Positions 10,916 to 33,796 of a DNA stretch of 64,000 bases are shown one piece after another. The stretch's first letter is position 1. Every line of letters starts with the position of its first letter. This stretch comes from Sphingomonas sp. 28-66-16 (lineage in GTDB: Bacteria; Pseudomonadota; Alphaproteobacteria; Sphingomonadales; Sphingomonadaceae), in the NCBI GenBank assembly GCA_002281485.1, contig NCGF01000001.1:62001-126000 (forward strand), given 5' to 3'. Made by a program: the position numbers and the translations under genes. The notes below the pieces were generated by a model. It saw only the letters and a program-made list of their open reading frames with translations. It had not been told where the DNA came from and did not search any database.

Positions 10916-11243
10916 TTTACCCTCCCCCCGGTATCGCCGGAAGCCAAATCCGGCCTGTCGTGCCGCATCGAGTCGCGGTTCGTCGACCGGATAAGCCTAG
11001 AGCATTCTCCTCCAATTACACACTATGTGACGGTCGGTCGGTGAATTGCCAAAAATTGCGGTACGTTTCTGGCGGTAACTATCCGTATTCGTGACATATA
11101 TTGCCTGATGCTGACCAGCGCCGTCCCGTGGCGGGACCATAAAGGGTGCCGCGCCCGGGTTTCTGTGCCATGAAGCCTGCGTCCGGCGGATGGGGGACGG
11201 CATCATTGTCGTTGCGGCGGGGGACTTCGGGGGGAGACAAACG
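10916..11243. promoter_or_regulatory. Divergent intergenic region between gdhA and the acetolactate-synthase-like gene
   Basis: A 328-bp gene-free stretch that must hold the promoters of both divergent units. Bases ~11000-11105 are clearly less GC-rich than the neighbourhood and include an A-tract (11051-11055) and CATATATTG (11096-11104), a plausible -10-like element for the rightward gene. A short direct repeat, GGTCGGTCGGT, lies near 11033. I see no credible small gene, tRNA or riboswitch fold here, and no confident -35/-10 pair. Confidence 0.5.
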
Positions 11244-12880
<1,637 letters not shown>

Positions 12881-12884
<4 letters not shown>

Positions 12885-17840: not shown

Positions 17841-19670
17841 GTGGCCTCGCTCCTGATCCTGCCGCTGCTCGCCGCTGCGGCGCTGCCGCAAACGGCGGCC
17901 CAGCAGCCGGGCGGCGATGCCGGCCCGCCGCCGCTGCCGACCGCGCGACCGGACACGATCGAGGGGCGCAAACGGCCCGGCTATCAGCCGCCGCTGCCCG
18001 ATGCGGTGACCCAGGACAATCCCGGCGCGGTCCGCGCGCCGCGCCCCGAAGCCTTCCCGACCGACCAGATCCCGCTGCCCGATCGCTGGCGGCTGATCGA
18101 ATCGCTCGGGGTCGTCAAGGAGCGCTGGTTCGACCCCTATCACCAGAATACGCTGAAGGGCGATCGCCCGATCGACCGCGCCAAGGTGCCGTGGCTGCCG
18201 ATCAAGGGCGACGACTGGTTCTTCGCGGCGAGCGCGATCAGCGACACGGTGTTCGAACCGCGCACCTTCCCGATCCCGGTCGGCGTCCAGACCACCGAGC
18301 GACCGCAGAGCCTCGACGTGTTCGGTCGCGACCCGAGCTTCGTCTTTTCGCAGACCTTCATCGTCGGCGCGTCGCTGATCAAGGGATCGACCGCGTTCAA
18401 GCCGCCCGAGATCGAATACCGGCTCGCGCTCGCCTTCAACATGAACTATGTCGATGTGCCCGAGCGCCGCGTCCTGAGCGTGCGGCCCAGCGATCCGAGC
18501 GACCGGCTCGACGGCTTTGTCGGCGTCCAGGAAGCGTTCGTCGACTATCATCTGCGCAACACGTCCGACCGCTATGATTTCGAATCGATACGCGTCGGCA
18601 TTCAGCCCTTCCAGAGCGATTTCCGTGGCTTCCTGTTCAACGACAACCAGCTCGGCATCCGCTTCTTCGGCAATCGCGACGACAACCGGTTCCAGTTCAA
18701 CCTCGCGGCGTTCTGGCGGCTCGAGAAGGACACCAATTCGGGGCTGAACGATGTCGCGCGGCGGCCGCGCAACGATGTCGTCTTCGTCGCCAACCTCTAT
18801 CGGCAGGATTTCCTGGTGCCGGGCCTGACCAGCCAGGTGACCGCCGTCTACAACCTCAACCGCGAAGGCGGCCAGATCGAGGTCGACACCAATGGTTTTC
18901 CCGTCCGCCCGGCCCTGCTCGGGAATTTGCGCGGCCGCGATTACGACGTCGTCTATCTCGGCTACAGCGCCGACGGCCGGATCGGGCGGCTCAACCTGAC
19001 CGCGTCGCTCTATGGCGCGCTCGGCGAGGACCGGAACAATTTCTTCACCGGCCGCCCCGCGCGGATCAGGGCGTTTTTCGGCGCGGCCGAGCTGAGCTAT
19101 GACGTCGACTGGATACGCTTTCGCCTGTCGGGGCTTTATGCGAGCGGCGACCATGATCCGTATGACGATACCGAGAGCGGCTTCGATGCGATCTTCGAAA
19201 ACCCGATCTTTGCCGGCGCCGATACCAGTTACTGGATTCGCCAGACGATCCCGTTCGCCGGCGGCGGTCGCGCGGTGGCGATCAACGGCCGCAACGGCAT
19301 CCTCAATTCGCTGCGCTCGTCGAAGGAACAGGGCCAGTCGAACTTCAACAATCCGGGCACGATATTGCTCGGGGCGGGCGCCGATTTCGATCTGACGCCG
19401 ACGCTCAGGGTGTCGGCCAATGCCAACCATCTCTGGTTCGACGACACGATCGTGCTGCGGACGCTGCGCAACGAGGGCAGTATCCCGAAGGATATCGGCT
19501 GGGATCTGTCGACTGCGATCATCTGGCGCACAAAGGCGACGCAGAATATCGTCGGTCGGCTGTCGGCGGCAGTGCTCGCGCCGGGGGGCGGGTTTCGCGA
19601 TCTTTTCACCAACCGTGCGCAGGAACAGGCCTATGTCTCGATCCTCGCCAATGTGATCGTGAGCTATTGA
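17841..19670 (+). CDS. Putative outer-membrane beta-barrel protein of the multihaem operon
   Basis: A 609-residue protein with a short hydrophobic N-terminus (LLILPLLAAAALPQTAA, probable signal), a proline-rich linker, and then many alternating amphipathic stretches with aromatic girdles (for example YRLALAFNMNYVDV, RFQFNLAAFWRLE, RLNLTASLYGAL), ending in ILANVIVSY. This is the look of a large transmembrane beta-barrel. I recognise no named family, and it is not obviously MtrB or PioB by eye. It lies 3 nt after the HbpS lipoprotein and overlaps the decahaem gene by one base. The start is a GTG at 17841 with only a weak ribosome site, consistent with coupling. A role as sheath of an outer-membrane electron conduit is inferred from context only. 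Confidence 0.65.
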   Translation: MASLLILPLLAAAALPQTAAQQPGGDAGPPPLPTARPDTIEGRKRPGYQPPLPDAVTQDNPGAVRAPRPEAFPTDQIPLPDRWRLIESLGVVKERWFDPYHQNTLKGDRPIDRAKVPWLPIKGDDWFFAASAISDTVFEPRTFPIPVGVQTTERPQSLDVFGRDPSFVFSQTFIVGASLIKGSTAFKPPEIEYRLALAFNMNYVDVPERRVLSVRPSDPSDRLDGFVGVQEAFVDYHLRNTSDRYDFESIRVGIQPFQSDFRGFLFNDNQLGIRFFGNRDDNRFQFNLAAFWRLEKDTNSGLNDVARRPRNDVVFVANLYRQDFLVPGLTSQVTAVYNLNREGGQIEVDTNGFPVRPALLGNLRGRDYDVVYLGYSADGRIGRLNLTASLYGALGEDRNNFFTGRPARIRAFFGAAELSYDVDWIRFRLSGLYASGDHDPYDDTESGFDAIFENPIFAGADTSYWIRQTIPFAGGGRAVAINGRNGILNSLRSSKEQGQSNFNNPGTILLGAGADFDLTPTLRVSANANHLWFDDTIVLRTLRNEGSIPKDIGWDLSTAIIWRTKATQNIVGRLSAAVLAPGGGFRDLFTNRAQEQAYVSILANVIVSY

Positions 19671-22600
19671 TGCGGCGCCTGGTCGCTCTTCTGTTCGGTC
19701 TGGTGGTGCCGGCGATGCTCGTCCCCGCCGCGCTGTCGATCGCGAGCGACGCCGAAAAGCCCGTCGCGCGCGTCTATGTCGAGGCGCCGCCCGCGCCGAT
19801 GAGCCAGACGGCGGCGCAGGTCGCCGACAAGTCCGAGGGCTGCTATTCGTGCCACACGCGGACCGACGAACCCTCGATGCACGCGAGTTCGGCGGTGATG
19901 CTGGGCTGCGTCGATTGTCATGGCGGCAATGCGTCGGTGATCGGCGATCCCGCGCACGGCTATGACGATGCCGCCTATATCGCGGCGCGCGACAAGGCGC
20001 ATGTTTTGCCGCTCTATCCGAAGAGCTGGCACCATCCCGATTCGGCCAATCCCAAACGCAGCTACACGTTGCTCAACCGCGAAGCGCCGCAATATATCCG
20101 CTTCGTCAATCCGGGCGACTACCGCGTCGCGCGCGCGGCGTGCGGCGCTTGTCACCTCAACACGATCGAGGCGGCGGAGCGATCCCTGATGGCGTCGGGA
20201 GCGATGCTGTGGGGCGGCGCCGCCTATAATAACGGCATCGTCCCGTTCAAGAATTACATCTTCGGCGAGGCTTATACCGAGGACGGCGAGCCGGCGAAAA
20301 TCGTCTCCCCCGGCGCGCCGCCGGGCACCGTCACCGCGGCGCAGGCCAGGCGCGGCGCGCTCGCCGCGCTCTATCCGCTGCCGACCTGGCAGGTGATCCC
20401 GCCGGGCGACATCTTCCGCGTGTTCGAGCGCGGCGGGCGCAATGTCAGCACCCAGTTCGCCGAGGTCGGCCTGCCCAATCCGACCGGGTCGATCCAGCGG
20501 CTCGAGGAGCCCGGCCGACCCGACCTGAAGCAATCCAATCGCGGCCCCGGCACGGGTCTGCGCGTCGCCATTCCCGTGCTCAACATCCACAAAACCCGGC
20601 TCAACGATCCGCTGATGTGGTTCATGGGCACCAACGAGCAGCCGGGTGACTATCGCGGCTCGGGCTGCACGGGCTGTCACGTCATCTATGCCAATGATCG
20701 CGAGCCGCGCCACAGCCTGATCTATGCACCATTCGGTCGCGACGGGCAGACCCAGACGGTTGATCCGACGATCGCCTCGAAGATGGCGGGCGGCGAAGGC
20801 GAAGGCCACGGCGCCGGAGCCGATGGCCATGGCGGCCTCGTCCCGCCCGGTCCGCATCCCGGCGTCAAGGCCAGCGGCCACCCGCTCCGCCACGCCTTCA
20901 CCCGCGCGATCCCGACCAGCCAGTGCATGAGCTGCCACATGCACCAGCCCAATATCTTCCTGAATTCCTATCTAGGCTACACGATGTGGGACTATGAATC
21001 CGACGCACCGTCGATGTGGCCCAAGCAACAGAAATATTCGACCGCCGCCGAGGCGCATAAGGTGCTCGAGCGCAACCCCGAAGCCGCCGCGGTGCGCGGC
21101 AATTGGGCCGATCCCGATTTCGTCCGCAACGTCTATGATCTCAATCCGACACTGAAGGACACCCAGTTTGCCGACTATCACAGCCATGGCTGGAATTTTC
21201 GCGGCATCTTCAAGCGCGATCGCGAGGGCAATCTGCTCGATGCCGAGGGCGGGATCGTCGCCCCCACCGATCCCGAAAAATGGCGCAAGGCGGGCGAAGG
21301 CACGTTCGTGCCGCCCGGCGTCAATCCTGGCAAGGCGGTCCATCTGATGGACATCCATGCCGAAAAGGGCATGCAATGCGCCGATTGCCATTTCGCGCAG
21401 GATAGCCATGGCAACGGCCTGATCTATGGCGAAGTCGCCAACGCGGTCGAGATTGGCTGCAAGGATTGCCACGGCACCGCCGATGCCTATCCGACCTTGC
21501 GCACCTCCGGGCCCGCCGCGAGCCCCAAGGGCAATGATCTGGCGCTGTTGCGCAATCCCGACGGCCAGCGTCGCTTCGAATGGGTGCCGATCGAGGGCGG
21601 GCGACGCAAGCTCGTGCAGCGATCGATCGTCGACCCCAGGATCGAGTGGGACGTCCATCTGGTGAAGGACAGCGTCGATCCGGCGAGCCCCTATTTCAAC
21701 GCCAAGGCGGCGCGCGCCAAGCTGATGAGCCGCACCGGCGCCGAGGATGGCCGCTTCGCCTTCGGCCCCGGCGTGCTGCCCGGCGCGCGCGCCCACGGCG
21801 AGGACAAGGTCACCTGCTACACCTGCCACCTCAGCTGGACGACGAGCTGCGGCGGCTGCCATCTGCCGATCGAGGCGAACTGGAAGACGACGACGCATCA
21901 TTTCGAGGGCGAGGAAACCCGCAACTTCGCGACCTACAACCCGCAGGTCGCGCGCGACGACATGTTCCAGCTCGGCAAGGGCATGACGACCAAGGGCAAT
22001 GTGACGACCCCGGTGCGCAGCACCTCGGCGCTGGTGCTGTCGTCGACCAACGTCAATCGCGAGCGCATCTATGTCCAGCAACCGCCGATCAGCGGCATCG
22101 GCTTTTCGAGCCAGGCGTTCGCGCCGCATTTCCCGCACACCGTGCGGAAGACCGAGACCAAGACGTGCAGCGATTGCCATTTGTCGGCAAGGGACGACAA
22201 CAACGCGATCATGGCGCAGCTGCTGCTGCTCGGCACCAACTACGTTAACTTCGTCGGGCTCAATGCCTGGACCGGGCTCGCCGGCGGGTTCGAGGCGGTG
22301 CGCGTCACCGAATGGGACGAACCCCAGGCGGTGATCGGTTCCTACTTGCAGAAATACGCCTATCCCGATTTCTGGAAGCTGCATGTCGACAAGAACAAGC
22401 GCGAGCTCAAAAACTGGGTGCGCGGCCGATATTTCGACAAGAAGGCCTCGGGCGAGACCCATGCGATCGAGGAATTCCGCAACATCGTTCAGGGCACCAA
22501 GGACGCGGTCGGCTGCCTGCAACTCCGCGGCGAATATATGTTTGTCGCCGAAGGGCGCGGCGGTTTTCGCGTTTATGATGTCGCCTCGATCGCCAACAAG

Positions 22601-23668
22601 GGCTTTTCCGAACGGATCATTTCGGCGCCCTTCTCGAAGCTCGGCCAGAACGCGCATGTCGCCTCGCCCAACGCGACCTGTATGGCCTTGCCCACCGACC
22701 AGCCGATCAATCCGCTGCGCAACACCCCCGAACTCCGCGAGATCAACCAGGAACAGCCCTTCCTGCCGATCTACAGCTATGCCGCCGTTACCGATTCGGT
22801 CGACGGGTTGATCCTCGTCAATATCGAGACGATGGCCGACGGCGAGTTCCGCAACAATTTCCTCAAGCGCGCGACGACCTGGAACCCCGACAATGTGCTG
22901 AAGGGCGCCCGGCACATCGTGCTGGCGGGCGAGATCGCCTACATCACCGCCGATGTCGGGCTGGTCGTTGTCGATCTTGCCGATCCGCTCCACCCCAAGC
23001 TCGCGGCGGTGCGCCCGCTGAAGGACGCGCGGGCAAGCGCGCTCCAGTTTCGCTATCTCTGGGTCACCGATGCCGACGGCGTGAAACTGTTCGACGTCAC
23101 CCGGCTGCGTGATCCGGTCACCGTCGCTTCGGGCACGATCGCGCTCGCCGACGCCCGGCGGCTCTATATCGCGCGCACCTATGCCTATATCGCCGCCGGC
23201 AACGATGGCCTTGTGATCGCCAACGTGACCAACCCGCAGGCGCCCGCGATCTACAAGCGTGTGACGCTGGGTGGACAGCTCAACGATGCCCAGGACGTGA
23301 TCGTCGGCAGCACCAATGCGTCGTTGTTTGCCTATGTCGCCGATGGCCGTAACGGGCTCAAGGTGCTGCAACTCACCTCGCCCGATAGCCAGACCAATTT
23401 CTACGGCTTCTCGCCAGCCCCCATGCCCGAGCTGATCGCCTGGGCGCGCACCCCCTCGCCCGCGCTCGCGCTCTCCAAGGGGCTCGACCGAGACCGCGCG
23501 GTCGACGAGACCGGCGGGCAGATGGCGGTATTCGGCCGGCTCGGCTCGCGGCCGTTCACCCGCAAGGAGATGGAGTCGTTTTTCCTGACCAGCCGCGGCA
23601 CCCCGTGGAAGGTGAGCGATACGGTCGACATGACCGCCTGGCGCCCCCCGCTCAAAGCGCCGCGTTAG
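19670..23668 (+). CDS. Decahaem cytochrome c fused to a C-terminal LVIVD beta-propeller
   Basis: A very large exported cytochrome (1332 residues). The signal peptide spans roughly residues 1-26 and has no lipobox. Ten CXXCH sites are seen at about residues 58, 80, 158, 333, 419, 570, 597, 716, 727 and 833. From about residue 945 the protein changes into repeats such as HIVLAGEIAYITADVGLVVV and AYIAAGNDGLVIANVTNPQ, which match the LVIVD repeat of seven-bladed propellers. The His/Gly-rich stretch GGEGEGHGAGADGHGG (374-389) may bind metal. The ATG at 19670 overlaps the barrel stop by one base. It is the last gene of the plus-strand unit and stops 1 nt from the converging phosphodiesterase gene. 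Electron donor, acceptor and side of the outer membrane are not known. Confidence 0.85.
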   Translation: MRRLVALLFGLVVPAMLVPAALSIASDAEKPVARVYVEAPPAPMSQTAAQVADKSEGCYSCHTRTDEPSMHASSAVMLGCVDCHGGNASVIGDPAHGYDDAAYIAARDKAHVLPLYPKSWHHPDSANPKRSYTLLNREAPQYIRFVNPGDYRVARAACGACHLNTIEAAERSLMASGAMLWGGAAYNNGIVPFKNYIFGEAYTEDGEPAKIVSPGAPPGTVTAAQARRGALAALYPLPTWQVIPPGDIFRVFERGGRNVSTQFAEVGLPNPTGSIQRLEEPGRPDLKQSNRGPGTGLRVAIPVLNIHKTRLNDPLMWFMGTNEQPGDYRGSGCTGCHVIYANDREPRHSLIYAPFGRDGQTQTVDPTIASKMAGGEGEGHGAGADGHGGLVPPGPHPGVKASGHPLRHAFTRAIPTSQCMSCHMHQPNIFLNSYLGYTMWDYESDAPSMWPKQQKYSTAAEAHKVLERNPEAAAVRGNWADPDFVRNVYDLNPTLKDTQFADYHSHGWNFRGIFKRDREGNLLDAEGGIVAPTDPEKWRKAGEGTFVPPGVNPGKAVHLMDIHAEKGMQCADCHFAQDSHGNGLIYGEVANAVEIGCKDCHGTADAYPTLRTSGPAASPKGNDLALLRNPDGQRRFEWVPIEGGRRKLVQRSIVDPRIEWDVHLVKDSVDPASPYFNAKAARAKLMSRTGAEDGRFAFGPGVLPGARAHGEDKVTCYTCHLSWTTSCGGCHLPIEANWKTTTHHFEGEETRNFATYNPQVARDDMFQLGKGMTTKGNVTTPVRSTSALVLSSTNVNRERIYVQQPPISGIGFSSQAFAPHFPHTVRKTETKTCSDCHLSARDDNNAIMAQLLLLGTNYVNFVGLNAWTGLAGGFEAVRVTEWDEPQAVIGSYLQKYAYPDFWKLHVDKNKRELKNWVRGRYFDKKASGETHAIEEFRNIVQGTKDAVGCLQLRGEYMFVAEGRGGFRVYDVASIANKGFSERIISAPFSKLGQNAHVASPNATCMALPTDQPINPLRNTPELREINQEQPFLPIYSYAAVTDSVDGLILVNIETMADGEFRNNFLKRATTWNPDNVLKGARHIVLAGEIAYITADVGLVVVDLADPLHPKLAAVRPLKDARASALQFRYLWVTDADGVKLFDVTRLRDPVTVASGTIALADARRLYIARTYAYIAAGNDGLVIANVTNPQAPAIYKRVTLGGQLNDAQDVIVGSTNASLFAYVADGRNGLKVLQLTSPDSQTNFYGFSPAPMPELIAWARTPSPALALSKGLDRDRAVDETGGQMAVFGRLGSRPFTRKEMESFFLTSRGTPWKVSDTVDMTAWRPPLKAPR

Positions 23669-23669
23669 A

Positions 23670-24515
23670 TTACTCGCGCTCGGCGAACAGCTGGCGCACC
23701 AGCGGCTGCATCCGGTCGTCGAAGCGTGCCAACGCGGCGCGCGGGCGAACGGTATCGACATGGCTGACGAGCTGCGCGCCGTCCCATCGGTGTAGCGCAT
23801 AGCCGGGCGGATCATCGTTCACCATCGGGCGGCCATCGGGATTTTCGGGATCGATCGGCGACAGATCGAGCGACAATTGCGCGGCGGTCGCCGGGCAGAT
23901 CGAGACGGTGATGCCGTTCCACGGTGCCGACACCGCGCGGTGGAGATGGCCGCACCAGATCGCGATGATCTGACGATGCCCGCCGATCGTGGCGGCGAAG
24001 CGATCGGTGAAGGCGGTGCCCTGATCGGCGGCCATCCAGGCGATGCCGGCGTCGATCGGCGGATGGTGCATCAAGATCACCGTCGGGGTGGTCGGCTGCT
24101 CGGCCAGCCGCGCGGCCAGCCAGGCGGCGCGCACCGCACAGAAGCTGCCGCCATGCCGCCCGGCCTCGAGCGTATCGAGCAGGATCAGCCGCAGCCCGTC
24201 GCGTGACAGACAATATTGGGCGAAGCCGTCGGCCAGCGGGACCTGCGGAAAGGCAGCGGCAAACGCCGCGCGGTCGTCATGATTGCCCAGCATCGGATAG
24301 ACCGGGAACGGGCAGCGGCGAAGGATGGCGACAAGTCGCGCGAAACTCTCGGGATCGCCGCGGTCGGTCAGATCGCCGGTGGCGAGCAGGAGATCGGGCC
24401 GGTTGGGCCCGTCGATCAGCTGGTCGAGCACGGCATCGAGCCGCCGCCGGTTGTCCTCGGCGGGATTGTCGGGCTCGAAGCCCAGGTGGAGATCGGTGAT
24501 CTGCGCAATCAACAC
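23670..24515 (-). CDS. cpdA: CpdA-like class III cyclic nucleotide phosphodiesterase (metallophosphoesterase)
   Basis: Cytoplasmic dinuclear metal phosphoesterase of 281 residues. The metal-binding motifs appear in order: TDLHLG at the N-terminus, GDLTDRG (about residue 47), GNHDD (about 76), MHHPP (about 148) and CGHLH (about 188). This is the class III signature of CpdA, which hydrolyses 3',5'-cAMP in characterised bacteria. It is the last gene of the minus-strand operon, 12 nt after the FHA-decahaem gene, and therefore co-expressed with a protein carrying two cyclic-nucleotide-binding domains. That context supports a cNMP phosphodiesterase rather than a generic metallophosphatase, but substrate is not proven. 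The gene converges with the decahaem-propeller gene to 1 nt. Confidence 0.82.
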   Translation of the reverse strand: MLIAQITDLHLGFEPDNPAEDNRRRLDAVLDQLIDGPNRPDLLLATGDLTDRGDPESFARLVAILRRCPFPVYPMLGNHDDRAAFAAAFPQVPLADGFAQYCLSRDGLRLILLDTLEAGRHGGSFCAVRAAWLAARLAEQPTTPTVILMHHPPIDAGIAWMAADQGTAFTDRFAATIGGHRQIIAIWCGHLHRAVSAPWNGITVSICPATAAQLSLDLSPIDPENPDGRPMVNDDPPGYALHRWDGAQLVSHVDTVRPRAALARFDDRMQPLVRQLFAERE

Positions 24516-24527
24516 GGCCTCTTCTCC

Positions 24528-26357
24528 CTAGTCGGCAACCGTCTTCTGCGGTCGTATTGCAGTCAGTGCCGGGGACAATGCCCGGCTGGCCGGTGACAGG
24601 CGTTGCCGACTGGTCCAGGGCGCGTCCTGCTTGACATGATAGCTATGACACATCGAACAGCCCGACGGCACCTTGGACGCCGACGTTTCGCCGCCATGGC
24701 AGCTCCGGCAACTCTTGATCCCTGGCAGCAACAAGTCGCTCGCCCGCGTCGATTGTGACGCGGCGTGGCAGCTCGAGCAGGTTTCGGTGGTGTGGGCGTT
24801 GTGATCGAACCAGCCATGCATCAGATAGCGCATCGGCTGGTTGACCTTGGTTATCCGCCAATCGTCGCTCGCCGGCGACGCGGGCGGCGTGACGACATGG
24901 CATTCCCCGCAGGCGCCGCGCGGCGCGAACACCGCCTTGATCGCCGCGTCCGCCCCGGTTGCGCGCGTGGCGACGGCACCGGCATAAACGCTCTGGGCCG
25001 CTTGCTCGGCGCGGTCACCCGGCAAGCGCCGGCTATTGCCGCCCAGGTTGATCGGCCGCACCGGTCCGGTCGACCGGAAATAGGCACGCAGATCGGCGAT
25101 CGTCTGCGCCGTATCGCCGTGCCGCAAGGTGCGGACGGTGCCGCCGATCTTCTCGAACGCCAGGCTGTGGCAGCCCTGACAATTCTTCTCCATCGTCACC
25201 GGCACGAAGCGCGTGCCATCGGCGCTGGGCATATGGCAATCGGCGCAGACCAGCGCGTCGCCATAGCCGAACCTTGCCTTGAGCGTCTGCCCCATCCGCG
25301 CCACCCCGCCCCGGGGATCGAGGTGGAGTTTGTGGGGGAATTTGAGTCCGCTATCGTCGGTTGGCCTCGCATCGAGCGAGACGCGGTGCATCGCCGGCGG
25401 GTCGCCCGGTATCGTCGCAACGAGCGGGCGGAACTGGGGATGCGACGTGCCGAAATCGCCCGCATCGGCGATCTTGCTGTCCGCCAGCCGGCGCTTGAGC
25501 GAACCATGACAATCGGCGCAAAAGGCCTGCGCCGTCGGCGGCATCGGCCCGGCGCCCTCATGCTCGTTATGGCAATCGACACAGGCGCCCGGGCCGGGCT
25601 TGCCGAAGGCCCGGGCGATGCTGGCGAGCACGCGCCCACCCAGCGCGGGCGGCATCCGCGCGGCGGCCAGCCGGCGCGGCGGCGCATGGTCATGGACATC
25701 CTTGTGGCACGAAGTGCAGCTCGAATCGCGCACCGACACGAACGCCTGCTGATGGCAGGCAGTGCAGTTGCCCTCGAGCGCATGGTGCGCCTGGCTGAGC
25801 GGGCCGCTCGACCAGTTGTGGTCGGCTTTCAGCGCATAGACGCTGCGCTGATCTTGGGCAGGGCGATTGAAGAAGCCCCAGATCGGCACGGCCAGAAAGG
25901 CAATCAGGAGTCCGAGCGCCAGCAGCCAGGCGGTCGGGCGCTTGCCGGGCAACATGCGGCGGAGTGAAAAGGCGACCGCCTCGTCGCGATCCTCGGCAGC
26001 TTCCGAAAGCGCAGCGACGCGCTGCACGGTCAGCAGGATTCTGCCCTCGTCATCGCGGCTGACCATGATGCGGTGACCGCCGAAACGCAGCTCGGCGCCC
26101 TTGGCGCTGTTGATATCGGCGCGACGACTCGTCCGTCCGTCGACCTCGAAGCCGAGCGTCCCCTCGGCGATGATCGCGATGCGGCGGTCGTCGCGCTGCT
26201 CGATGCGTGCATGGAGCGGATCGACCGCGAGATCCTGAAGCTCGATGTCATTTTCGGCCGCGCGGCCGATCGTCAATATCTCCTTGTCGACCGGCGTCGT
26301 CCGGGCGATTTCACGCCCGTCGGCGGTGGTGCTGATGCGACAGATCAGGAAAGCCAT
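24528..26357 (-). CDS. FHA domain - transmembrane helix - decahaem cytochrome c fusion
   Basis: A 609-residue membrane-tethered cytochrome. Residues ~5-112 form an FHA-like domain (IGRAAENDIEL, then VDPLHARI), so the phosphothreonine-contacting Ser of the usual S-x-x-H is replaced by Asp. A single TM helix (about 142-163) follows a basic RRMLPGKR, placing the FHA domain in the cytoplasm and the rest in the periplasm. Ten CXXCH sites start at residues 198, 214, 259, 280, 371, 393, 483, 527, 550 and 567, in a cytochrome c3/c7-like spacing. The ATG at 26357 has GAGG eight bases upstream and lies 10 nt after the cytochrome b stop; a frame starting 12 codons earlier would overlap that gene. Likely the periplasmic electron acceptor or donor of the cytochrome b. 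Confidence 0.87.
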   Translation of the reverse strand: MAFLICRISTTADGREIARTTPVDKEILTIGRAAENDIELQDLAVDPLHARIEQRDDRRIAIIAEGTLGFEVDGRTSRRADINSAKGAELRFGGHRIMVSRDDEGRILLTVQRVAALSEAAEDRDEAVAFSLRRMLPGKRPTAWLLALGLLIAFLAVPIWGFFNRPAQDQRSVYALKADHNWSSGPLSQAHHALEGNCTACHQQAFVSVRDSSCTSCHKDVHDHAPPRRLAAARMPPALGGRVLASIARAFGKPGPGACVDCHNEHEGAGPMPPTAQAFCADCHGSLKRRLADSKIADAGDFGTSHPQFRPLVATIPGDPPAMHRVSLDARPTDDSGLKFPHKLHLDPRGGVARMGQTLKARFGYGDALVCADCHMPSADGTRFVPVTMEKNCQGCHSLAFEKIGGTVRTLRHGDTAQTIADLRAYFRSTGPVRPINLGGNSRRLPGDRAEQAAQSVYAGAVATRATGADAAIKAVFAPRGACGECHVVTPPASPASDDWRITKVNQPMRYLMHGWFDHNAHTTETCSSCHAASQSTRASDLLLPGIKSCRSCHGGETSASKVPSGCSMCHSYHVKQDAPWTSRQRLSPASRALSPALTAIRPQKTVAD

Positions 26358-26367
26358 CGTCAGCGCC

Positions 26368-27234
26368 TCACCAGTAGAAGAAAACGCTGACAACGTGCGC
26401 CGTCAGGGCTGCGATCAGCGCGAAGGTGGCGGGCACATGGACGTAAAGCCAGATTTCGAGCAGCGCCTTGAGCCGCAAATGGCGCCGCAGCCGATCGAGC
26501 ATGGCCACCTTGCGGCCGAGCAGCGCATCGACCCGTTCGAGCGCCGCCTGCATCTCCCCGCCATGGCCACGGATAAGCGCATGCGCCGCCGCCGTCGCGC
26601 AGTGCCGGTCGCGGCCCGACAGCCGCACTCTCAGGCCACCGCCGAACGGGTCCTGTTCGAGCGAGGCGAGCACCAGCCGCGCCAGCGCCGGATCGAGCGG
26701 CTGGGCGGCATCGTGCAACTGGCGATCGACCGCGCGCACCGCATCGAGCATTTGGCGCTGGGTCATCTCCTCGCGATTGTTGCTCAGCGCGGCCGGGATC
26801 GTCGTATAGGCGGCCACCCCCCAGATGCCCGAGACGATCACCAGCATCATCAGCGCATAGGCCAGCGTATGCACGTTCCAGCCGAACTGGAAACCGGTGT
26901 GCAGCGTGCCGATCACGATCAGGCTCAGGCCGAGATAGACATGCGCGCTGGTCGACGCCTTGAGCGACCAGCGACCGCGCGTCATCGCGCGTTTGCGCAC
27001 CCCGAGCAGCGTCAACCACAGGATCAACAGGACGCCGATCGTGCCGAGCGTATAGCCATACCAGCTGCCCCCATTGGGCCGCGGGCCGACGTCGATCAGC
27101 GCATAGGCAATGATGGCGACGCCGCTCAGCGTGAGCGCCACCTTGAGCCAGCGGAAGCCGGCATGGCGCAGAAACCCTTCGTGCAGGGGGTCGCTGCGGC
27201 GACTGGCCCGAGAGGCGCTCCGGCTGGCGATCAG
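26368..27234 (-). CDS. Integral membrane cytochrome b-like protein
   Basis: Helical membrane protein of about 288 residues linking the cytoplasmic iron-sulfur oxidoreductase to the periplasmic decahaem protein. Predicted helices lie at about 29-49, 60-79, 95-115, 120-143 and 260-285. Histidines inside or next to helices (H98, H112, H122, H266, H280) could ligate two b haems, so a quinone- or haem-based relay is likely. A soluble, Arg-rich loop (~150-255) connects helices four and five. No ATG, GTG or TTG lies between the upstream stop and the first helix; a CTG at 27234, overlapping that stop as CTGA and preceded by GGGAGGAACG, is the best start. The only alternative, an ATG at 27321, would overlap the upstream gene by 91 nt. 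I do not recognise a named family. Confidence 0.78.
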   Translation of the reverse strand: MIASRSASRASRRSDPLHEGFLRHAGFRWLKVALTLSGVAIIAYALIDVGPRPNGGSWYGYTLGTIGVLLILWLTLLGVRKRAMTRGRWSLKASTSAHVYLGLSLIVIGTLHTGFQFGWNVHTLAYALMMLVIVSGIWGVAAYTTIPAALSNNREEMTQRQMLDAVRAVDRQLHDAAQPLDPALARLVLASLEQDPFGGGLRVRLSGRDRHCATAAAHALIRGHGGEMQAALERVDALLGRKVAMLDRLRRHLRLKALLEIWLYVHVPATFALIAALTAHVVSVFFYW

Positions 27235-29690
27235 CGTTCCTCCCGTTCGAGCCGCGATACCGTCAGGAAGTTCTCCGGCGAGACGCGGATCGCCGCTCCG
27301 GTCGGGCAGGCGCGCACGCATGCGGGCCCGCCCTTGATCCCCGAGCACATGTCGCATTTGATCGCCTTTTTGGGCAATTCGACGTCCGGCCGGGCATGTT
27401 TCTTGCGCCACGCCTTGCTCGGCTCGCCCGGCCCTGGCCCCGCCCCAAGCAACAGCCAGCGGAGCAGGGACGGTTTCGGCGGCGGGACGCTGTCCATCCG
27501 GATCACGCCGTAAGGGCAGTTGCGCTGGCAATTGCCGCAGCCGATGCAGCTTTCATCGATGAACACCTCGCCGTCCGGGCCGCGATGGATCGCATTGGGC
27601 GGGCAATCGGCCATGCAGTGCGGATGTTCACAATGCCGGCAGCTCGTCGGCACATGGAGATGGGCATAGGTCCGCCCGGCCTCGCGATCGAGCCGCGACA
27701 GCCCCTCATGACTGTCGGCGCAGGCCTTCTCGCAATTGTCGCAGCCGACGCACAGATTCTCGTCGATCAGCAGCACGTCGGTGGCCTCGCCGATGCCATT
27801 GTCGACGAGGAATTTGGCGGTCTGCGAATACATGTCGACGATGCCCGAGAAACTGTCCTTGCGGCTCTCGACAAAGGCGTTGACGTTCTGGCGCGCGGCC
27901 ATGTCGGCGCGCGCCTTTTCGAGCAGCCGCGGCTTCGCCTCGAGCAGCCGGCGAAAGCTTTCGCCCTTGAGCCGGATCACCTCGGACTTGATCGCCGCCT
28001 TGACGGTCGCGGTGCGCTTGCCGCCCGCGATCAACGCCATTTCGCCGACATAGGAGCCCGCCGGCAGATAGGAGAGAAACACCGGTTTGCCGCCGACGCT
28101 CTTCTCGACGATCATGCTGCCGACCCGGATCACGAAGATGTCGTCGCCCTCCTCGCCCTCGGTGATGATCGGCTTGCCGGCACGCACCGTCTCGATCTCG
28201 GCGGCGTCGAGCACCTCGGTCAGATCGGCGGCGACCAACCCCGAACCGAACATCTGCAGCAATTGCCGCTCCACCGAAATCCGGGTCACCGCGCGCTTGG
28301 CGGCGGGCACCGACGCCATCAGCTTGAGCGCGGCGGTGCGCGACACCTCGACGACGACGACGTCGCTCGCCGCGCGGATCGTCGCCCCGCGCCGCCGACC
28401 CGAGATCAGCCCGACTTCGCCGAAGATCGATCCCTGCTCGATCGGCACCGTGATCGACGGATCGTCCTTGCTGACCTCGACCAGCACCGATCCCTGGACG
28501 ATGCCGAACAGCGACGAGCCGATCGCGTTGCGTTCGAAGATCGTCTCGCCCTTGCGATAGGCGCGCACGTCCGAATCGAGCATGAACTCGCGCATCTGCA
28601 GCGGCGACAGCTCGTTGAGGATGCTCACATTGCTGCGCAGCGATTCGAGCCATTGATCGACCGAGGGTTGGCTCTTGCGGCCCTTGAACGCGGCGAACTT
28701 CGCTTCGAGCAACGGTTCGTCGGCCGGCTTCAGCGTGGTGTTGCCGTTGATGAACTCGATGACGTCGTAGCCCTGGTTCATGCAATGCTTGATCAGCGGA
28801 TAGCCGGCGAGCGCGCCGATCACGAAGATGCCCGGCTTGGTCGTCTCGAACACCGGCGACAGTTGCGGGAACGCCTCGCGGTCGGCGCTGGTGAACGCGA
28901 TCCCGCACGATTCGATGAACGCGCGCGGCGCCGCCGAGCCCATCCGCGCGATGATCCGGTCGCAGCGGATCGTTTCCTGGCCGCTCGGGGTGTCGAGGAC
29001 GAGCTGCCCGTCTTTCACTTCGGCGGGGGTGGTTTCGAGCCGGATCGAGACCCGCCCCCGCTCGCCGGCTTCGGTGAGCAATTTGACGTTGGCCGGCTTC
29101 GAGCGGGCGAAATCGGCCGACCGGTTGAGGATGGTGACGATATTGCCCTGCGCCGGATCGGCAGCGAGGCCGAGCGCGTTTTCGATGCCGGCGTCACCCG
29201 ATCCGATCACCGTGATATGTTCGTCGACATAGGCGCCCGGGTCGTCGAGCTGATACTGGACATGCGGCAGATCGGCGCCCGCGCAACGCATCCGATTGGG
29301 GTTGCCCTGGGTGCCGATCGCCATCACGATTCGTTCGGCGGCGATCGTCGTGCCATCGGTCAGCAGGATTTCGAAATCGCCCTGGTCGCCCGTGATCGCC
29401 TTCACCTCGCTGCGGTACCGGACCTTGACCCCGCGTTCGGCCGCCTGGCGATCCCATATCGCAAGGATCGCCTCGCGCTTGCCGGCCGCGAAATCGACGT
29501 CGGAACGCAGCACGAGCTGGCTGGGCGTCGCCATCACATGCTTGCCCTTCTGATATTTGTAGATCGTATCAGAAAGGTGGTCGGTTTTCTCGAGCAAGAC
29601 GTGCGAGAGCCCGAGTTGCGCAGCCCGCGCGGCCGCGCTCAGCCCGGCCGGTCCCGAGCCGATGATGGCGACGCGGACGCGGTCCCCCAT
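27231..29690 (-). CDS. FAD/NAD(P) oxidoreductase fused to two cyclic-nucleotide-binding domains and four 4Fe-4S motifs
   Basis: An 819-residue cytoplasmic protein without signal peptide or TM helix. Residues ~5-320 form a two-dinucleotide-fold flavoprotein (GSGPAG at 11-16, GSGDAG at 163-168) of the thioredoxin-reductase/YpdA type. Two cNMP-binding domains follow, ~360-475 and ~485-600; the second has a complete phosphate-binding cassette (GEMALIAGGKRTATV, E550, R559), the first a variant (FGEVGL...RRRGATI). Residues ~640-800 are a DmsB/NrfC-like ferredoxin with sixteen cysteines (647, 650, 653, 657; 684, 687, 692, 696; 715, 718, 721, 725; 779, 782, 791, 795), enough for four clusters. The ATG at 29690 follows GGGGGGAT. 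It heads the operon with cytochrome b, FHA-decahaem and phosphodiesterase genes. Likely an NAD(P)H-linked module whose activity responds to cAMP or cGMP. Confidence 0.88.
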   Translation of the reverse strand: MGDRVRVAIIGSGPAGLSAAARAAQLGLSHVLLEKTDHLSDTIYKYQKGKHVMATPSQLVLRSDVDFAAGKREAILAIWDRQAAERGVKVRYRSEVKAITGDQGDFEILLTDGTTIAAERIVMAIGTQGNPNRMRCAGADLPHVQYQLDDPGAYVDEHITVIGSGDAGIENALGLAADPAQGNIVTILNRSADFARSKPANVKLLTEAGERGRVSIRLETTPAEVKDGQLVLDTPSGQETIRCDRIIARMGSAAPRAFIESCGIAFTSADREAFPQLSPVFETTKPGIFVIGALAGYPLIKHCMNQGYDVIEFINGNTTLKPADEPLLEAKFAAFKGRKSQPSVDQWLESLRSNVSILNELSPLQMREFMLDSDVRAYRKGETIFERNAIGSSLFGIVQGSVLVEVSKDDPSITVPIEQGSIFGEVGLISGRRRGATIRAASDVVVVEVSRTAALKLMASVPAAKRAVTRISVERQLLQMFGSGLVAADLTEVLDAAEIETVRAGKPIITEGEEGDDIFVIRVGSMIVEKSVGGKPVFLSYLPAGSYVGEMALIAGGKRTATVKAAIKSEVIRLKGESFRRLLEAKPRLLEKARADMAARQNVNAFVESRKDSFSGIVDMYSQTAKFLVDNGIGEATDVLLIDENLCVGCDNCEKACADSHEGLSRLDREAGRTYAHLHVPTSCRHCEHPHCMADCPPNAIHRGPDGEVFIDESCIGCGNCQRNCPYGVIRMDSVPPPKPSLLRWLLLGAGPGPGEPSKAWRKKHARPDVELPKKAIKCDMCSGIKGGPACVRACPTGAAIRVSPENFLTVSRLEREER

Positions 29691-29834
29691 GGCGATTATC
29701 CCCCCGTCGTTGCGGCGCGCGCACCACCCCCGTGCCGTCGTTCGCCGCAGAATGCGCTTTGAAGCGCGATGACGGCACCCTAACATGACGGCCGCGAACT
29801 ACCACCCTTGAACCTTCTGATCGCTGGGACAGTC
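29691..29834. promoter_or_regulatory. Divergent promoter region with a perfect 14-bp palindrome
   Basis: This 144-bp stretch separates the divergent starts of the cNMP-binding oxidoreductase operon and the CcmI-like gene, so it should hold both promoters. A hyphenated palindrome GCGCTTTGAAGCGC occupies 29754-29767 near its middle and is a candidate operator. No Crp-type TGTGA-N6-TCACA site is visible. The palindrome is short enough to be chance in GC-rich DNA. Confidence 0.4.
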
Positions 29835-30779
29835 ATGCCCTCTGCCAAGCCGGCCCCCCGATTCGCCACCTGGCTTTTGCTCGGCGCCGCCGCAGTGCTT
29901 TTGGTCTCAATAGCTTATGCGGTGTCACGCGGCGGCGCCGCGCCCGATGCCAAAACAGCCGCGATCCCGACGGCGACAGAGCCTCCGTCGACGCCGGCAT
30001 CGATCGAGGCACGCCGCGCGCGGACGCGCGCCGCGCCGGGTGATTCGCGTGCCTGGCAGGCGCTCGGCGAAGCCGAATTCGCGCAGGGCGCGTTCGGCGA
30101 CGCGGCCGCCGCCTTCGATCGGGCGACCCGGCTTTCCCCGGACAGGGCGGTCCTCTGGTCGGCGCTGGGCGAAGCCCTGGTGATGGCCAACCCGCGCGAT
30201 CCGATGCCGGCGCCCGCGCTGGTGGCGTTCCGCAAGGCGCTGTCGATCGATCCGAAGGATCCGCGCAGCCGCTATTTCGCAGCGGTCGCGCGTGATCTGA
30301 AGGGCGACCATCGCGGCGCGATCGACGACTGGTTCGCGCTGCTCGACGACACCCCCGCCGACGCCCCGTGGGACAATGATCTGCGCCGGACGATCATGCA
30401 GGTCGCCAGGATCAACAAGATCGATATTGCCGCACGAATGGCGGCCGCACGCCCGGCGACGCCGCATCCCCCGCTTGCGCCGGGCTTCGCGCCCGGCGCG
30501 GCGATTCCCGGCCCCGATGCGGACCAGATGCGCGCCGCCGGAGCGCTGCCGCCCAGCCAGCAGGCGGCGATGATCGCGGCGATGGTCGATCGGCTCGAAA
30601 CCAAGCTGCGCGCCGATCCGGCCAATGTCGATGGCTGGGTGATGCTGATGCGCAGCCGGATGACGATGGGCGATCGCGCGCAGGCCAGCGCTGCGCTCAA
30701 AGCGGCGATCGCTGCCAACCCGGCCGCGCGCGCGCGGCTCGAGGCCGCCGCCGCAAGCCTTCAGGTGCCGGCGCGCTGA
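29835..30779 (+). CDS. CcmI/NrfG-like TPR protein for c-type cytochrome maturation
   Basis: A 314-residue protein with one N-terminal membrane helix (FATWLLLGAAAVLLVSIAYAV) and a periplasmic region with tetratricopeptide repeats (RAWQALGEAEFAQGAFGDAAAAFDRA, shown here only in part as AWQALGEAEFAQGAFGDAA; again near the C-terminus as VDGWVMLMRSRMTMGDRAQA). This is the architecture of the C-terminal half of CcmI/CycH or NrfG, which hold apocytochromes for haem attachment. The other ccm genes are not in the window. Its place beside ~25 covalent haem sites suggests a dedicated chaperone for this locus. The ATG at 29835 follows GGGACAGTC; a TTG nine codons earlier is in frame but has no ribosome site. 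An intrinsic terminator follows directly. Confidence 0.75.
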   Translation: MPSAKPAPRFATWLLLGAAAVLLVSIAYAVSRGGAAPDAKTAAIPTATEPPSTPASIEARRARTRAAPGDSRAWQALGEAEFAQGAFGDAAAAFDRATRLSPDRAVLWSALGEALVMANPRDPMPAPALVAFRKALSIDPKDPRSRYFAAVARDLKGDHRGAIDDWFALLDDTPADAPWDNDLRRTIMQVARINKIDIAARMAAARPATPHPPLAPGFAPGAAIPGPDADQMRAAGALPPSQQAAMIAAMVDRLETKLRADPANVDGWVMLMRSRMTMGDRAQASAALKAAIAANPAARARLEAAAASLQVPAR

Positions 30780-30816
30780 CGCGGCATGCGCCGCGCGCCG
30801 GCACCGGCCTATTTTT
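30764..30816 (+). terminator. Strong intrinsic terminator overlapping the end of the CcmI-like gene
   Basis: A perfect 13-bp GC-rich stem (30764-30776 with 30793-30805) with a further 3-bp inner stem is followed six bases later by TTTTT (30812-30816). The left arm covers the last codons of the CcmI-like gene, and its stop codon sits in the loop. It ends the plus-strand transcript before it runs antisense into the adenylate cyclase gene. Confidence 0.82.
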
Positions 30817-33055
30817 CGGTTGCCTGGAAAACGCCGTCCCAGCCGGCGGGCGGCGGGTTATCGGTGAAATGCCGCACGCGATCGTGCATCAGGCCATAGA
30901 ATTTGGCGAGCCCGAAGGTGGCAGCGACCGGCGACCCCGTATCGAGCAACGCCTTCGCCGCGACCCATTGCTGCGCAGCATAGGCGCCGAGCATCGCCAC
31001 GTGATCGGCGGCAAAGACCTCGAATTCGGGCGTCTCGGCAACGGCTTCGTCGCCGATCAGCACATAGATCGTCTCGGGCGCGTCGCGCCCGACGACGCGC
31101 ACGCAATCGAGCGGCAGTATCGCGAACCGGGGCAGATGGCGCTCGAGCGATTCGCCGATCGCGATCCTGACACCGTAATATTTGGTCAGCCCCTCGATCC
31201 GCGAAGCGAGGTTCACCGTATCGCCGATCAGCGAATAGGATAGCCGCTGCGCCGATCCCATGTTGCCGACGCAGCACGGACCGGCATTGAGGCCGATGCC
31301 GAGATTGACCACGCCGGGCCAGGGTTCGGCGGTCTGGTTGGGCATGTCGATGTTGAGCTTTTCGAGCCGCGCCACCATCGCCAGCGCTGCGCGGGCGGCG
31401 TTGGCATGTTGATCGGGATCGTCGAGCGGCGCATTCCAGAACGCCAGGATCGCATCGCCGATGAACTTGTCGATCGTCGCCTTGCGGGCGAGCAATATGT
31501 CGCACATCGGGGTCAGGAAGGCGATCAGGAAGCGGATGATCTCCTTCGGCGTGAGCTGTTCGGAGATCGAGGAGAAACTCCGGATATCGCAGAACAGCAC
31601 GGTCATCTCGCGCTCTTCGCCGCCGAGTTCGAGCTGGCTCGGATCATCGACGATCCGCTTGACGAGCGCCGGCGATAGATAACGGTCAAACGCCTGGTGG
31701 ATATACGCGCGCTGGCGTTCCTCGCGGTAGAAGATCACCACCGTCTCGACGAGATAGACCGCGGTCAGCCCGATCACGGCATAGGTGGGGTCGAGCAGGA
31801 AGTGATAGGTGCGGAACGCTTCCCAGCTGCCCCCCATCGTGCCGGCGATCATGGCTGCCCCCAGCAGCGCCCCGCGCGTCGCGCCGATCGCCGGCAGCAG
31901 GATCGCCAGCACCAGCCCGAACACCACCAGCAAGCTGCGTTCGAGCCCCGGCGCCCAATCTGGCCGGGTGAGGAACTTGCCGAGGATCATCTGTTCGACG
32001 GCCTGGGCATGCACCATCACGCCCAGATCGCGATCCTGGATCGGCGTGGCGACGAGATCGCGCAGACCGACCGCACCGGCCCCGATGAAGACGATCCGCC
32101 CGGCAAATTCACGCTCCATCTCGGCCGGGGAAAGCTTTCCTTCGAGGACCTTCCAGGCAGGGACGACGCGATCGGGATGCGGCGCGGTAAAATACATCCA
32201 GAGTTCGCCGGCCGGGGTCGTCGGCACTTCGAAGTCGCCGATCTTGATCGAGACGACGTCGCCCCCTGTCCCGCCGAGCTCGCCGCTGGCATTGCTCGAC
32301 TTGACGAGGATCGAGCCCGCCCCTTGGGCAACGCGCAGCGCATCGGCCGATAGTGACGGCAGCAACTGGCCATTGGCCGAGGCGATCATCGGCGCCTTGC
32401 GGACGATGCCATCGCTGTCGCCGACCAGACTGACGAAGCCGAGCCCGGTCGCCGCCGCGCTGAGCGGTGCGAGCGGCTGGATCGCGTTGGTGAACCCCGC
32501 GACGCCGGCGCTCGGCGACGAGCCCAGCACCGCGATTCCGGCCTTCGGCGCGGGCACCGCACCGCGACCCTCGCGAGTCAGGAACAGGCCGAGCGTCACC
32601 GGCGCCTGGCGGATCACGTCGGCAAGGGCGGTATCATTGTCAGGCAGCGATTCGAGGAGGGCGCGCATCGCCGGGCTGCCACCCTCGCGTTGCAGCCGTT
32701 TGGCGAGCCGCGCCGGCGAGGTCCGGTCGCTTTCCGAAAAGACGATGTCGAACGCGATCGCCGATGCGCCGGCATTGGCGATCCGGCGCGTCAGATCGGC
32801 GATATCGGTGCGCGGCCACGGCCACTGGCCGAGCCGCCTGATCGTTTCATTGTCGATATCGACGATCCGGACCGGCGCTTCCTCATAGGGGCGCGGCGCG
32901 ATCCGCTGAAATCCATCGAACAGCAGAAGACCGGTACGGTTGAGCTGCGATACGCCAAACACCTGCAACATCGCTGCAACCGCCAGCGTCGCGAGGCCGG
33001 GCACGATCAATCCGCCGCGCCGCCTCAAATAGCTGCGGATTGGCCCGCCCGCCAT
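30809..33055 (-). CDS. CHASE2-domain adenylate cyclase (class III)
   Basis: Membrane cyclase of about 748 residues that should make cAMP from ATP. After an N-terminal helix, a periplasmic CHASE2 sensor fills about residues 40-350 (VRIVDIDNETIRRLGQWPWPR, AIAFDIVFSE, GRIVFIGAGAVGLRD). Three helices follow (~365-440), then the cyclase domain: FCDIRSF carries the first metal Asp (~480), TIDKFIGDA the base-specifying Lys (~520) and the second Asp (~524), and SLIGDTVNLASRIEGL the transition-state Asn/Arg. All key residues are intact. The ATG at 33055 has GGGGGG seven bases upstream; an ATG at 33070 adds five residues. It faces the CcmI-like gene tail-to-tail and is divergent from a FecR operon. Being next to cNMP-sensing and cNMP-degrading genes, it may serve that system. 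Confidence 0.9.
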   Translation of the reverse strand: MAGGPIRSYLRRRGGLIVPGLATLAVAAMLQVFGVSQLNRTGLLLFDGFQRIAPRPYEEAPVRIVDIDNETIRRLGQWPWPRTDIADLTRRIANAGASAIAFDIVFSESDRTSPARLAKRLQREGGSPAMRALLESLPDNDTALADVIRQAPVTLGLFLTREGRGAVPAPKAGIAVLGSSPSAGVAGFTNAIQPLAPLSAAATGLGFVSLVGDSDGIVRKAPMIASANGQLLPSLSADALRVAQGAGSILVKSSNASGELGGTGGDVVSIKIGDFEVPTTPAGELWMYFTAPHPDRVVPAWKVLEGKLSPAEMEREFAGRIVFIGAGAVGLRDLVATPIQDRDLGVMVHAQAVEQMILGKFLTRPDWAPGLERSLLVVFGLVLAILLPAIGATRGALLGAAMIAGTMGGSWEAFRTYHFLLDPTYAVIGLTAVYLVETVVIFYREERQRAYIHQAFDRYLSPALVKRIVDDPSQLELGGEEREMTVLFCDIRSFSSISEQLTPKEIIRFLIAFLTPMCDILLARKATIDKFIGDAILAFWNAPLDDPDQHANAARAALAMVARLEKLNIDMPNQTAEPWPGVVNLGIGLNAGPCCVGNMGSAQRLSYSLIGDTVNLASRIEGLTKYYGVRIAIGESLERHLPRFAILPLDCVRVVGRDAPETIYVLIGDEAVAETPEFEVFAADHVAMLGAYAAQQWVAAKALLDTGSPVAATFGLAKFYGLMHDRVRHFTDNPPPAGWDGVFQATEK

Positions 33056-33385
33056 GATGTTGCCCCCCATGCGTCGCCCGATCGCGCGACGTGGTGCCCT
33101 CTAGCACGGATTGATTGGCGCCGAAAATTACCGGTGTCGCGACAGCGTCGATCGGCCCGGAAGATCTTTGGTGAGATCAATTCAATTACACCGCAAATCA
33201 GCATCTTGTAAAAAGACGGACTATCGAAATTGATGACGGACGTGGCGTGTGCAGCAAGAAAATAACCTCTTGCAGCATTTTTTTGGAGTATTTTGCGACC
33301 AGCTTGCCTAACATGGGTTTATTGTTCCGGTCCCACGCGGTGTTGCAAATTGGCTGGTTCAACCTCGGGGGAGGGGACTGAGATC
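33056..33385. promoter_or_regulatory. AT-richer divergent region between the cyclase and FecR units
   Basis: A 330-bp stretch without a credible gene. Bases ~33170-33340 are distinctly AT-rich for this window and include a seven-T tract (33278-33284) and several TATTTT/TTATTG elements, as expected of promoters for both divergent units. I cannot assign a confident -35/-10 pair or operator. No tRNA or structured RNA was recognised. Confidence 0.5.
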
Positions 33386-33796
33386 ATGAAATTACTGCAA
33401 TCGCGCACGGTGCGCCGCCTGGCATTTTTTGCGGGCGGCGCAATGCTTTGGACGGGGCCTGCGCCTGCTCAGGACGATCGCGTCGCGGCGCTCGATCCGA
33501 TCGCGGAGGCCTCCACCGATGTCGAGGCCGGGATGGCGCTTGCTGCGCAGCAATCGGCTGCCGGCGATCTCGTCGAGGCCGCCGCGACGCTCGAGCGGGT
33601 GCTGCTGCTCCACCCGCTCGCGCATCGGGCGCTGATCGTTCATGCGGGGCTCTTGTGCCGGCTCGACGATGCCGAAGGCGGCCGGATCGAGCTCGCGAAG
33701 TTTCTGAACCCGCCGGTGGCCGATCCGGCGTGGACCGCGGCAATCGGCGCCTGTGGCGCAATGCCGGTTGCGGCGAACCAGGGGACTGGCAAATGA
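33386..33796 (+). CDS. Small exported TPR-like protein upstream of FecR
   Basis: A 136-residue protein with a signal peptide (MKLLQSRTVRRLAFFAGGAM, cleaved near APAQ-DD) and a helical body. The segment GMALAAQQSAAGDLVEAAAT followed by LERVLLLHPLAHRALIVHAG reads as one or two tetratricopeptide-like helices. The ATG at 33386 follows GAGGGGACTGAGATC. Its stop overlaps the start of the FecR-domain gene by four bases, so the two are coupled. Small TPR plus FecR pairs are often seen near CHASE2 cyclases. Function unknown; a periplasmic scaffold for the FecR protein is a guess. Confidence 0.7.
   Translation: MKLLQSRTVRRLAFFAGGAMLWTGPAPAQDDRVAALDPIAEASTDVEAGMALAAQQSAAGDLVEAAATLERVLLLHPLAHRALIVHAGLLCRLDDAEGGRIELAKFLNPPVADPAWTAAIGACGAMPVAANQGTGK

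Follow-up and report, generated by a model that had tools for sequence, protein, structure and literature searches.

We report on a gene cluster of Sphingomonas sp. 28-66-16 found in a 64,000-nucleotide stretch of contig NCGF01000001.1 (assembly GCA_002281485.1, positions 62,001 to 126,000; hereafter the window). Its conserved core consists of three genes, encoding a flavoprotein with two cyclic-nucleotide-binding (cNMP) domains and four 4Fe-4S motifs, a two-haem cytochrome b, and an FHA-decahaem protein. Judging from its sequence, the locus probably specifies a conduit for electrons across the membrane, with an input enzyme under cyclic-nucleotide control.

A conserved three-gene core

An earlier sequence-only reading had proposed four minus-strand genes between 29690 and 23670, encoding in order a flavin adenine dinucleotide (FAD) and nicotinamide adenine dinucleotide (NAD) protein, a cytochrome b, an FHA-decahaem cytochrome and a phosphodiesterase. 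On recheck, both the coordinates and the order were right, and the features are as follows.

27231..29690, minus strand: flavoprotein of 819 residues, with an FAD/NAD(P) domain, two tandem cNMP-binding domains and four 4Fe-4S motifs (Pfam, conservation in 119 sequences, PDB profile matches)
28377..28424, minus strand: phosphate-binding cassette of cNMP domain 1, residues 423-438 (G424, E425, R434), from conservation; E and R align with PKA RI
28002..28049, minus strand: phosphate-binding cassette of cNMP domain 2, residues 548-563 (G549, E550, R559), from conservation; aligns with PKA RI
27306..27752, minus strand: 16 cysteines of the four 4Fe-4S motifs, residues 647-795, each in 119/119 sequences
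26368..27234, minus strand: membrane cytochrome b with a candidate CTG start and four invariant histidines in two 14-spaced pairs
24528..26357, minus strand: FHA domain, one transmembrane segment (residues 145-163) and decahaem c-type cytochrome (Pfam, CXXCH count)
23670..24515, minus strand: metallophosphoesterase resembling class III cyclic-nucleotide phosphodiesterases (Pfam, NCBIfam, PDB profiles, class III motif)

The spacings of +10 and +12 nucleotides also stood, but the overlap of -4 between the first two genes requires a CTG start at 27234, a position without ATG, GTG or TTG. Since the overlap rests on this CTG, and the cytochrome b frame is open to 27531, the start at 27234 is treated as a candidate only.

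The loci compared were the best 80 of at least 568 confirmed flavoprotein relatives, mostly from Sphingomonadales, and 38 further stretches (G loci), giving 118 in total; these include one pair on an identical contig, and 117 are left without the duplicate. Genes were called with a home-made GC-bias caller, which served for family finding only and entered no conservation counts. The flavoprotein and FHA-decahaem genes lie on the same strand and at most 3 kb apart in 110 of the 118 loci (109/117 without the duplicate), and in all 110 an open reading frame with three or more hydrophobic segments is placed between them. The sequence-only reading had staked itself on these genes being neighbours elsewhere, and adjacency turned out to be the rule; because the core is kept in so many of the fetched loci, it is more than a chance arrangement. 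In four of the eight remaining loci (L076, L093, L098, L106) the stretch stops 2 to 904 bases past the flavoprotein match. The other four (L156, L167, L168, L174) have no downstream FHA protein on the fetched stretch, although L167 carries it elsewhere on its stretch. Genome G348 holds two flavoprotein copies (L173 and L174), and it is the L174 copy whose stretch has no FHA-decahaem gene. In L175 and L176, which come from the same genus, flavoprotein and cytochrome b are fused as a single reading frame of 1118 and 1123 residues, respectively.

At family level, 118 of 298 genomes had a full-length flavoprotein relative; the class gave 26 of 289 and a phylum sample 15 of 398, the genome studied here being counted in all three. 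Of 36 other genomes of its own genus, 2 had one. The FHA-decahaem protein is present in 27 of the 289 class genomes, namely all 26 flavoprotein carriers and one other. In public records the parts of the system are named only 'hypothetical protein' or by domain, with generic names in two plasmid records.

Cofactor ligands and nucleotide cassettes of the flavoprotein

The proposed make-up of the flavoprotein agrees with its Pfam matches (Pyr_redox_3, 5.8e-30; cNMP_binding, 3.6e-32 in two stretches; several Fer4 models) and with the 16 cluster cysteines of the four ferredoxin motifs, all of which are kept in the 119 sequences. Both Rossmann-fold nucleotide-binding motifs are invariant or nearly so in the same set, and R190, where the second beta strand of the NAD(P) domain ends, is kept in 115/119, which hints at NADPH as the donor. 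A CXXC within the first 330 residues was found in none of the 119 flavoproteins, indicating that the flavin domain has no dithiol of the thioredoxin reductase type. The nearest relatives of the N-terminal domain are the YpdA/Bdr-type FAD-NADPH reductases (TIGR04018, 124.6 bits, under the cut-off of 339.9; PDB 7a7b, 131 bits); unlike these, the protein described here has two cNMP domains and four 4Fe-4S motifs fused on, and a cytochrome b linked to it.

The cNMP domains match PF00027 in two stretches with 110.6 bits, well over the cut-off of 27.5. In the first cassette G424, E425, R434 and T437, and in the second G549, E550 and R559, are each present in 119/119 sequences, and in both domains the Glu and Arg line up with those of PKA RI, which binds cyclic AMP (cAMP). 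Since both cassettes are intact and 116 of 118 carriers have a cyclase, cyclic nucleotide binding by the flavoprotein, as had been suggested, is likely. The tandem arrangement of the domains, and the alignment of their Glu and Arg to PKA RI, recall the regulatory pairs of PKA and PKG as well as CRP, but the known ones govern kinases or DNA binding, whereas here the pair is located within a redox enzyme.

Cytochrome b and the FHA-decahaem protein

The membrane cytochrome b was read correctly from its sequence, in that four invariant histidines lie within hydrophobic segments. In all 111 aligned sequences they form two pairs, H119/H133 and H287/H301, with a spacing of 14 residues within each pair. 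Transmembrane histidine pairs of such spacing are typical where two b haems are stacked across the membrane, an arrangement that this protein would share. No Pfam family matched it over its cut-off (PF01292, 17.6 versus 30.1 bits).

For the third protein, the FHA domain, the single transmembrane segment and the ten CXXCH motifs that had been described were all found (Cytochrome_C7, 3.8e-14; FHA, 6.7e-5, 23.7 bits, over the cut-off of 20.7). Of 25 aligned sequences, 23 have all ten CXXCH motifs; the other two have nine, and a CX4CH takes the tenth place. The conserved cofactor ligands of the three proteins imply the path that had been proposed, from NAD(P)H through flavin, 4Fe-4S clusters and b haem to c haem.

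We class the system as a probable variant of electron transfer across the membrane from NAD(P)H to haem. Such transfer, outward over a flavin and two b haems held by paired histidines, is also known from NADPH oxidases, ferric reductases and STEAP proteins; here, however, iron-sulfur clusters intervene, a decahaem protein is the acceptor, and neither the flavoprotein nor the cytochrome b was found under the Pfam names of those proteins. CymA, ImcH and CbcL resemble the FHA-decahaem protein in that a multihaem protein anchored at the inner membrane hands electrons to the periplasm, but their donors are quinols, whereas the donor here is most likely NAD(P)H via the cNMP-domain flavoprotein.

Co-occurrence with class III cyclases

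The co-occurrence of the flavoprotein with class III cyclases is the strongest support for the cyclic-nucleotide link. Within the family, such a cyclase was found in 116 of 118 flavoprotein genomes versus 24 of 180 without the flavoprotein (Fisher p 2e-55, descent ignored), and when counted by hand at the level of genera, in 42/42 carrier genera versus 14/54 others. The two carriers without a cyclase, G941 and G961, are 73% and 76% complete. Among chosen genomes, all 18 carriers had a cyclase, compared to 6 of 36 relatives without the flavoprotein. A cyclase lies within 25 kb of the core in at least 19 of the 88 carriers with a listed place, where about 2 would be expected at random placement, and in at least 16/84 once places from the 18-genome check are left out.

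The window carries one such cyclase, separated from the core by a further gene:

30809..33070, minus strand: CHASE2-class III adenylate/guanylate cyclase (PF00211), 1118 bp upstream of the flavoprotein start
29808..30779, plus strand: TPR protein of the CcmH/CycH kind, between cyclase and core (PF23914, 5.2e-16)

The cyclase is the sole PF00211 match found in this genome, which is 86% complete, and is encoded on the same strand as the flavoprotein. Neither this gene nor the outer-envelope module described below figured in the sequence-only reading. TPR-like and FecR-domain genes adjoin the cyclase at 33293-34773. The TPR protein, a possible haem-maturation accessory, has relatives in 79 of 118 loci, and in 79/79 of these it is encoded on the strand opposite to the flavoprotein.

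On plasmid pMSHV of Sphingobium herbicidovorans (L197, 36418-42511; L199, 2005-10584), the system adjoins a two-partner-secretion pair with an exoprotein of 2092 residues, and its neighbours also include a CHASE2 cyclase, a CHAT protein and a Crp/Fnr regulator. Two-partner-secretion homologues among the loci searched number 7 for the transporter and 10 for the exoprotein, with none in the window.

The phosphodiesterase

The fourth gene had been read as a CpdA-type phosphodiesterase, by which the operon would remove its own nucleotide. The protein matches Metallophos (Pfam, 5e-19), and the class III motif D-GD-GNH[E/D]-H-GHxH, taken from passages of the SpdA study (PMC4222275), is present in the window protein and in 76 of 77 homologous matches, the one miss being cut by a contig end. 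The narrower assignment did not hold, since the score for CpdA is 90.7 bits against a cut-off of 225 (NF008359). SpdA (NF050112) scores 140.6 bits, which is above the value for CpdA yet under the cut-off of 400, and profile matches in the PDB are to Rv0805 (94.1 bits) and an Enterobacter phosphohydrolase (82.6 bits). The protein is thus like SpdA, Rv0805 and CpdA in being a metallophosphoesterase with the five class III motifs, and differs from SpdA and CpdA in falling under both family cut-offs. Labels in public records vary, with cpdA in one and metallophosphoesterase in another. The same passages of the SpdA study (PMC4222275) report no detectable 3',5'-cAMP activity for SpdA, and its authors state there that the specificity of class III enzymes is not predictable from sequence.

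Among testable loci, the phosphodiesterase gene comes after the core in 62/68 from the mostly Sphingomonadales set and in 8/34 G loci, these 8 all being from the same family. Outside the family it is next to the core in 0/26 testable loci (25 have none, and in one it lies farther off), and it was dropped as a fixed part of the system. The notion of an operon that removes its own nucleotide is therefore unsupported, as the phosphodiesterase is lineage-limited, stays below both family cut-offs, and belongs to a class described in the cited passages as unpredictable in its specificity.

A linked outer-envelope module

On the plus strand, four genes converge on the operon:

14461..15855, plus strand: cytochrome c554-like protein with four CXXCH and one CX4CH
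15855..17837, plus strand: HbpS-like predicted lipoprotein (PF03928, 6.6e-23; lipobox-like N-terminus by eye)
17841..19670, plus strand: predicted 18-strand outer-membrane barrel, AlgE/Occ-like
19667..23668, plus strand: decahaem-propeller protein of 1333 residues, with ten CXXCH and C-terminal LVIVD repeats

Outside the family, many genomes of the class have the HbpS-like, barrel and decahaem-propeller genes downstream of the core on the same strand. The decahaem-propeller protein was found in 20 of 289 class genomes, all of them within the 26 flavoprotein carriers (Fisher p 6.6e-26, descent ignored). Among carriers without it, G111, G119, G164 and G317 have a c554-like gene nearby, and G119 and G164 additionally a five-haem protein and another predicted outer-membrane protein; G179 has no c554-like gene on its stretch. 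Given that carriers differ in their outer genes, the core may pair with different outer modules.

The barrel was modelled with 18 long strands at a predicted local distance difference test score (pLDDT) of 70.7, and by structure comparison is closest to AlgE, with Occ channels also among the first-ranked matches. A simple MtrCAB-type reading of the barrel and decahaem genes was set aside, since AlgE and Occ channels ranked first; no MtrB-type barrel was among the structural matches listed, which leaves room for an Mtr-type complex. With the AlgE and Occ (OprD) channels the barrel shares at most 15% identity, and unlike them it is genetically tied to a decahaem protein. Neither the barrel nor the decahaem-propeller protein has a sequence match in the PDB, and the latter scores 67.3 bits for ExtM (NF040943), under the cut-off of 800.

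Other genes were noted in this region. A small secreted-looking protein of about 150-220 residues is encoded between the FHA-decahaem and HbpS genes in 7 G loci (for example L154, 13913-14392), and two members that were tested had no Pfam match. Genes for a thiamine pyrophosphate-dependent enzyme and an aldehyde dehydrogenase are tightly spaced on the plus strand of the window (11190-14314), just upstream of the c554-like gene; they were dropped as a metabolic clue, as 9 and 7 of 118 loci, respectively, carry a relative close to the core. For a Glu/Leu/Phe/Val dehydrogenase (window 9560-10915) the number of loci with such a relative is 23 of 118, the median identity being 81%.

A model for the system and its alternatives

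In the conduit that we propose, NAD(P)H would reduce the FAD of the soluble flavoprotein, whose four 4Fe-4S clusters would relay the electrons to cytochrome b. There a stack of two b haems would carry them across the inner membrane, and the FHA-anchored protein would accept them in the periplasm on its ten c haems. Where present, the decahaem-propeller protein of the linked outer-envelope module would take the electrons next. The class III cyclase would supply the nucleotide, and the two cNMP domains, placed between the flavin and iron-sulfur parts, would bind it and alter transfer from flavin to clusters. Cofactor ligands, intact nucleotide cassettes, gene linkage and cyclase co-occurrence are all present in the genomes themselves; what we say of nucleotide binding and gating, of the sign of the gating, of cAMP versus cyclic GMP, of flow direction, cofactor order and the final acceptor, we infer. 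The model in its fullest form, a second-messenger-gated wire in which the nucleotide of a dedicated cyclase switches the path of flavin, iron-sulfur, b haem and c haem, onward to the decahaem-propeller protein in most carriers, is put forward tentatively, at somewhat less than an even chance.

The conduit could operate without allosteric gating, if the cNMP domains were structural or docking elements and the tie to the cyclase came from a separate Crp/Fnr transcriptional circuit travelling along. Four more cNMP-domain places in this genome (frames of 238-255 residues), the Crp/Fnr gene on the same stretch of plasmid pMSHV, and the fact that the cyclase is not always near the core would all suit such an arrangement. 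Merely structural domains, however, would not preserve the Glu and Arg of both cassettes in 119/119 sequences across several bacterial families, and we consider this account unlikely. Electrons might also flow in the reverse direction, with outer decahaem proteins gathering them from a donor in the periplasm or outside the cell, and the flavoprotein reducing NAD(P)+ when the nucleotide permits. A multihaem chain can in principle run both ways, no potential can be read from the cofactors, and the resemblance of the barrel to substrate channels (AlgE, Occ/OprD) fits uptake of a small compound. Bis-His multihaem c cytochromes, though, often lie near or above the potential of NAD(P)+/NAD(P)H, so that NAD(P)+ reduction would need energy, and no energy-coupling subunit was seen in the core; inward flow thus appears quite improbable. 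A serious, if somewhat doubtful, competitor is a periplasmic reductase for one compound, such as an oxyanion, in place of a wire to outside solids: the barrel would admit the compound and the decahaem-propeller protein would reduce it. The AlgE/Occ-like barrel is in keeping with this, as are short matches of the 1333-residue protein to ExtM, ExtN and ExtO of selenite/tellurite operons (8.2e-19 to 2.7e-8, 67 to 33 bits), but these span about 50 residues around two haem motifs and are far under the cut-offs (67 of 800 and 33 of 200 bits).

A number of observations weigh against the gated conduit itself. The co-occurrence statistics take no tree into account, which the genus count only lessens, and the 24 family genomes with a cyclase and without the flavoprotein indicate that the cyclase has further roles. 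In the 18-genome check, 9 of the 18 carriers have a cyclase within 25 kb of the core and the others have it farther away or on another contig; one genome holds 39 cyclases. An orthologous CHASE2 cyclase stands beside the core in 2 of 118 loci (L072, L074), with other cyclases on the stretch in four more, and was dropped as a fixed neighbour. On the outer side, 6 of the 26 class carriers are without the decahaem-propeller protein, including G084, whose contig ends inside the module, and the AlphaFold model of residues 27-1223 of this protein has a pLDDT of 45. Finally, phosphothreonine-binding FHA domains have a conserved Gly-Arg, Ser-x-x-His and Asn; in the 25 aligned sequences Gly-Arg is present in 25/25 and the His in 18/25, but the Ser in 1/25 and the Asn, at its presumed column, in 0/25. 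As Gly-Arg is kept and the usual Ser and Asn are not, docking is likelier than phosphothreonine recognition for this domain.

All parts of the system come from known fold families, yet the cut-offs of YpdA, CpdA, SpdA, PF01292 and ExtM are missed. A search of an open paper library turned up no description of a system with this gene set, in agreement with the sequence-only reading. Bacterial cyclic nucleotides are known mostly for their action through transcription factors. To our knowledge, the gated wire, if true, would be the first known direct control of a respiratory-type electron-transfer complex by a cyclic nucleotide. If a redox complex senses the nucleotide itself, second-messenger signalling would be coupled directly to electron flow, and control would then be exerted within seconds rather than via gene expression. 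The system is common in the family (118/298 genomes), though its parts carry generic names, and it would offer a concrete target for many class III cyclases without a known one.

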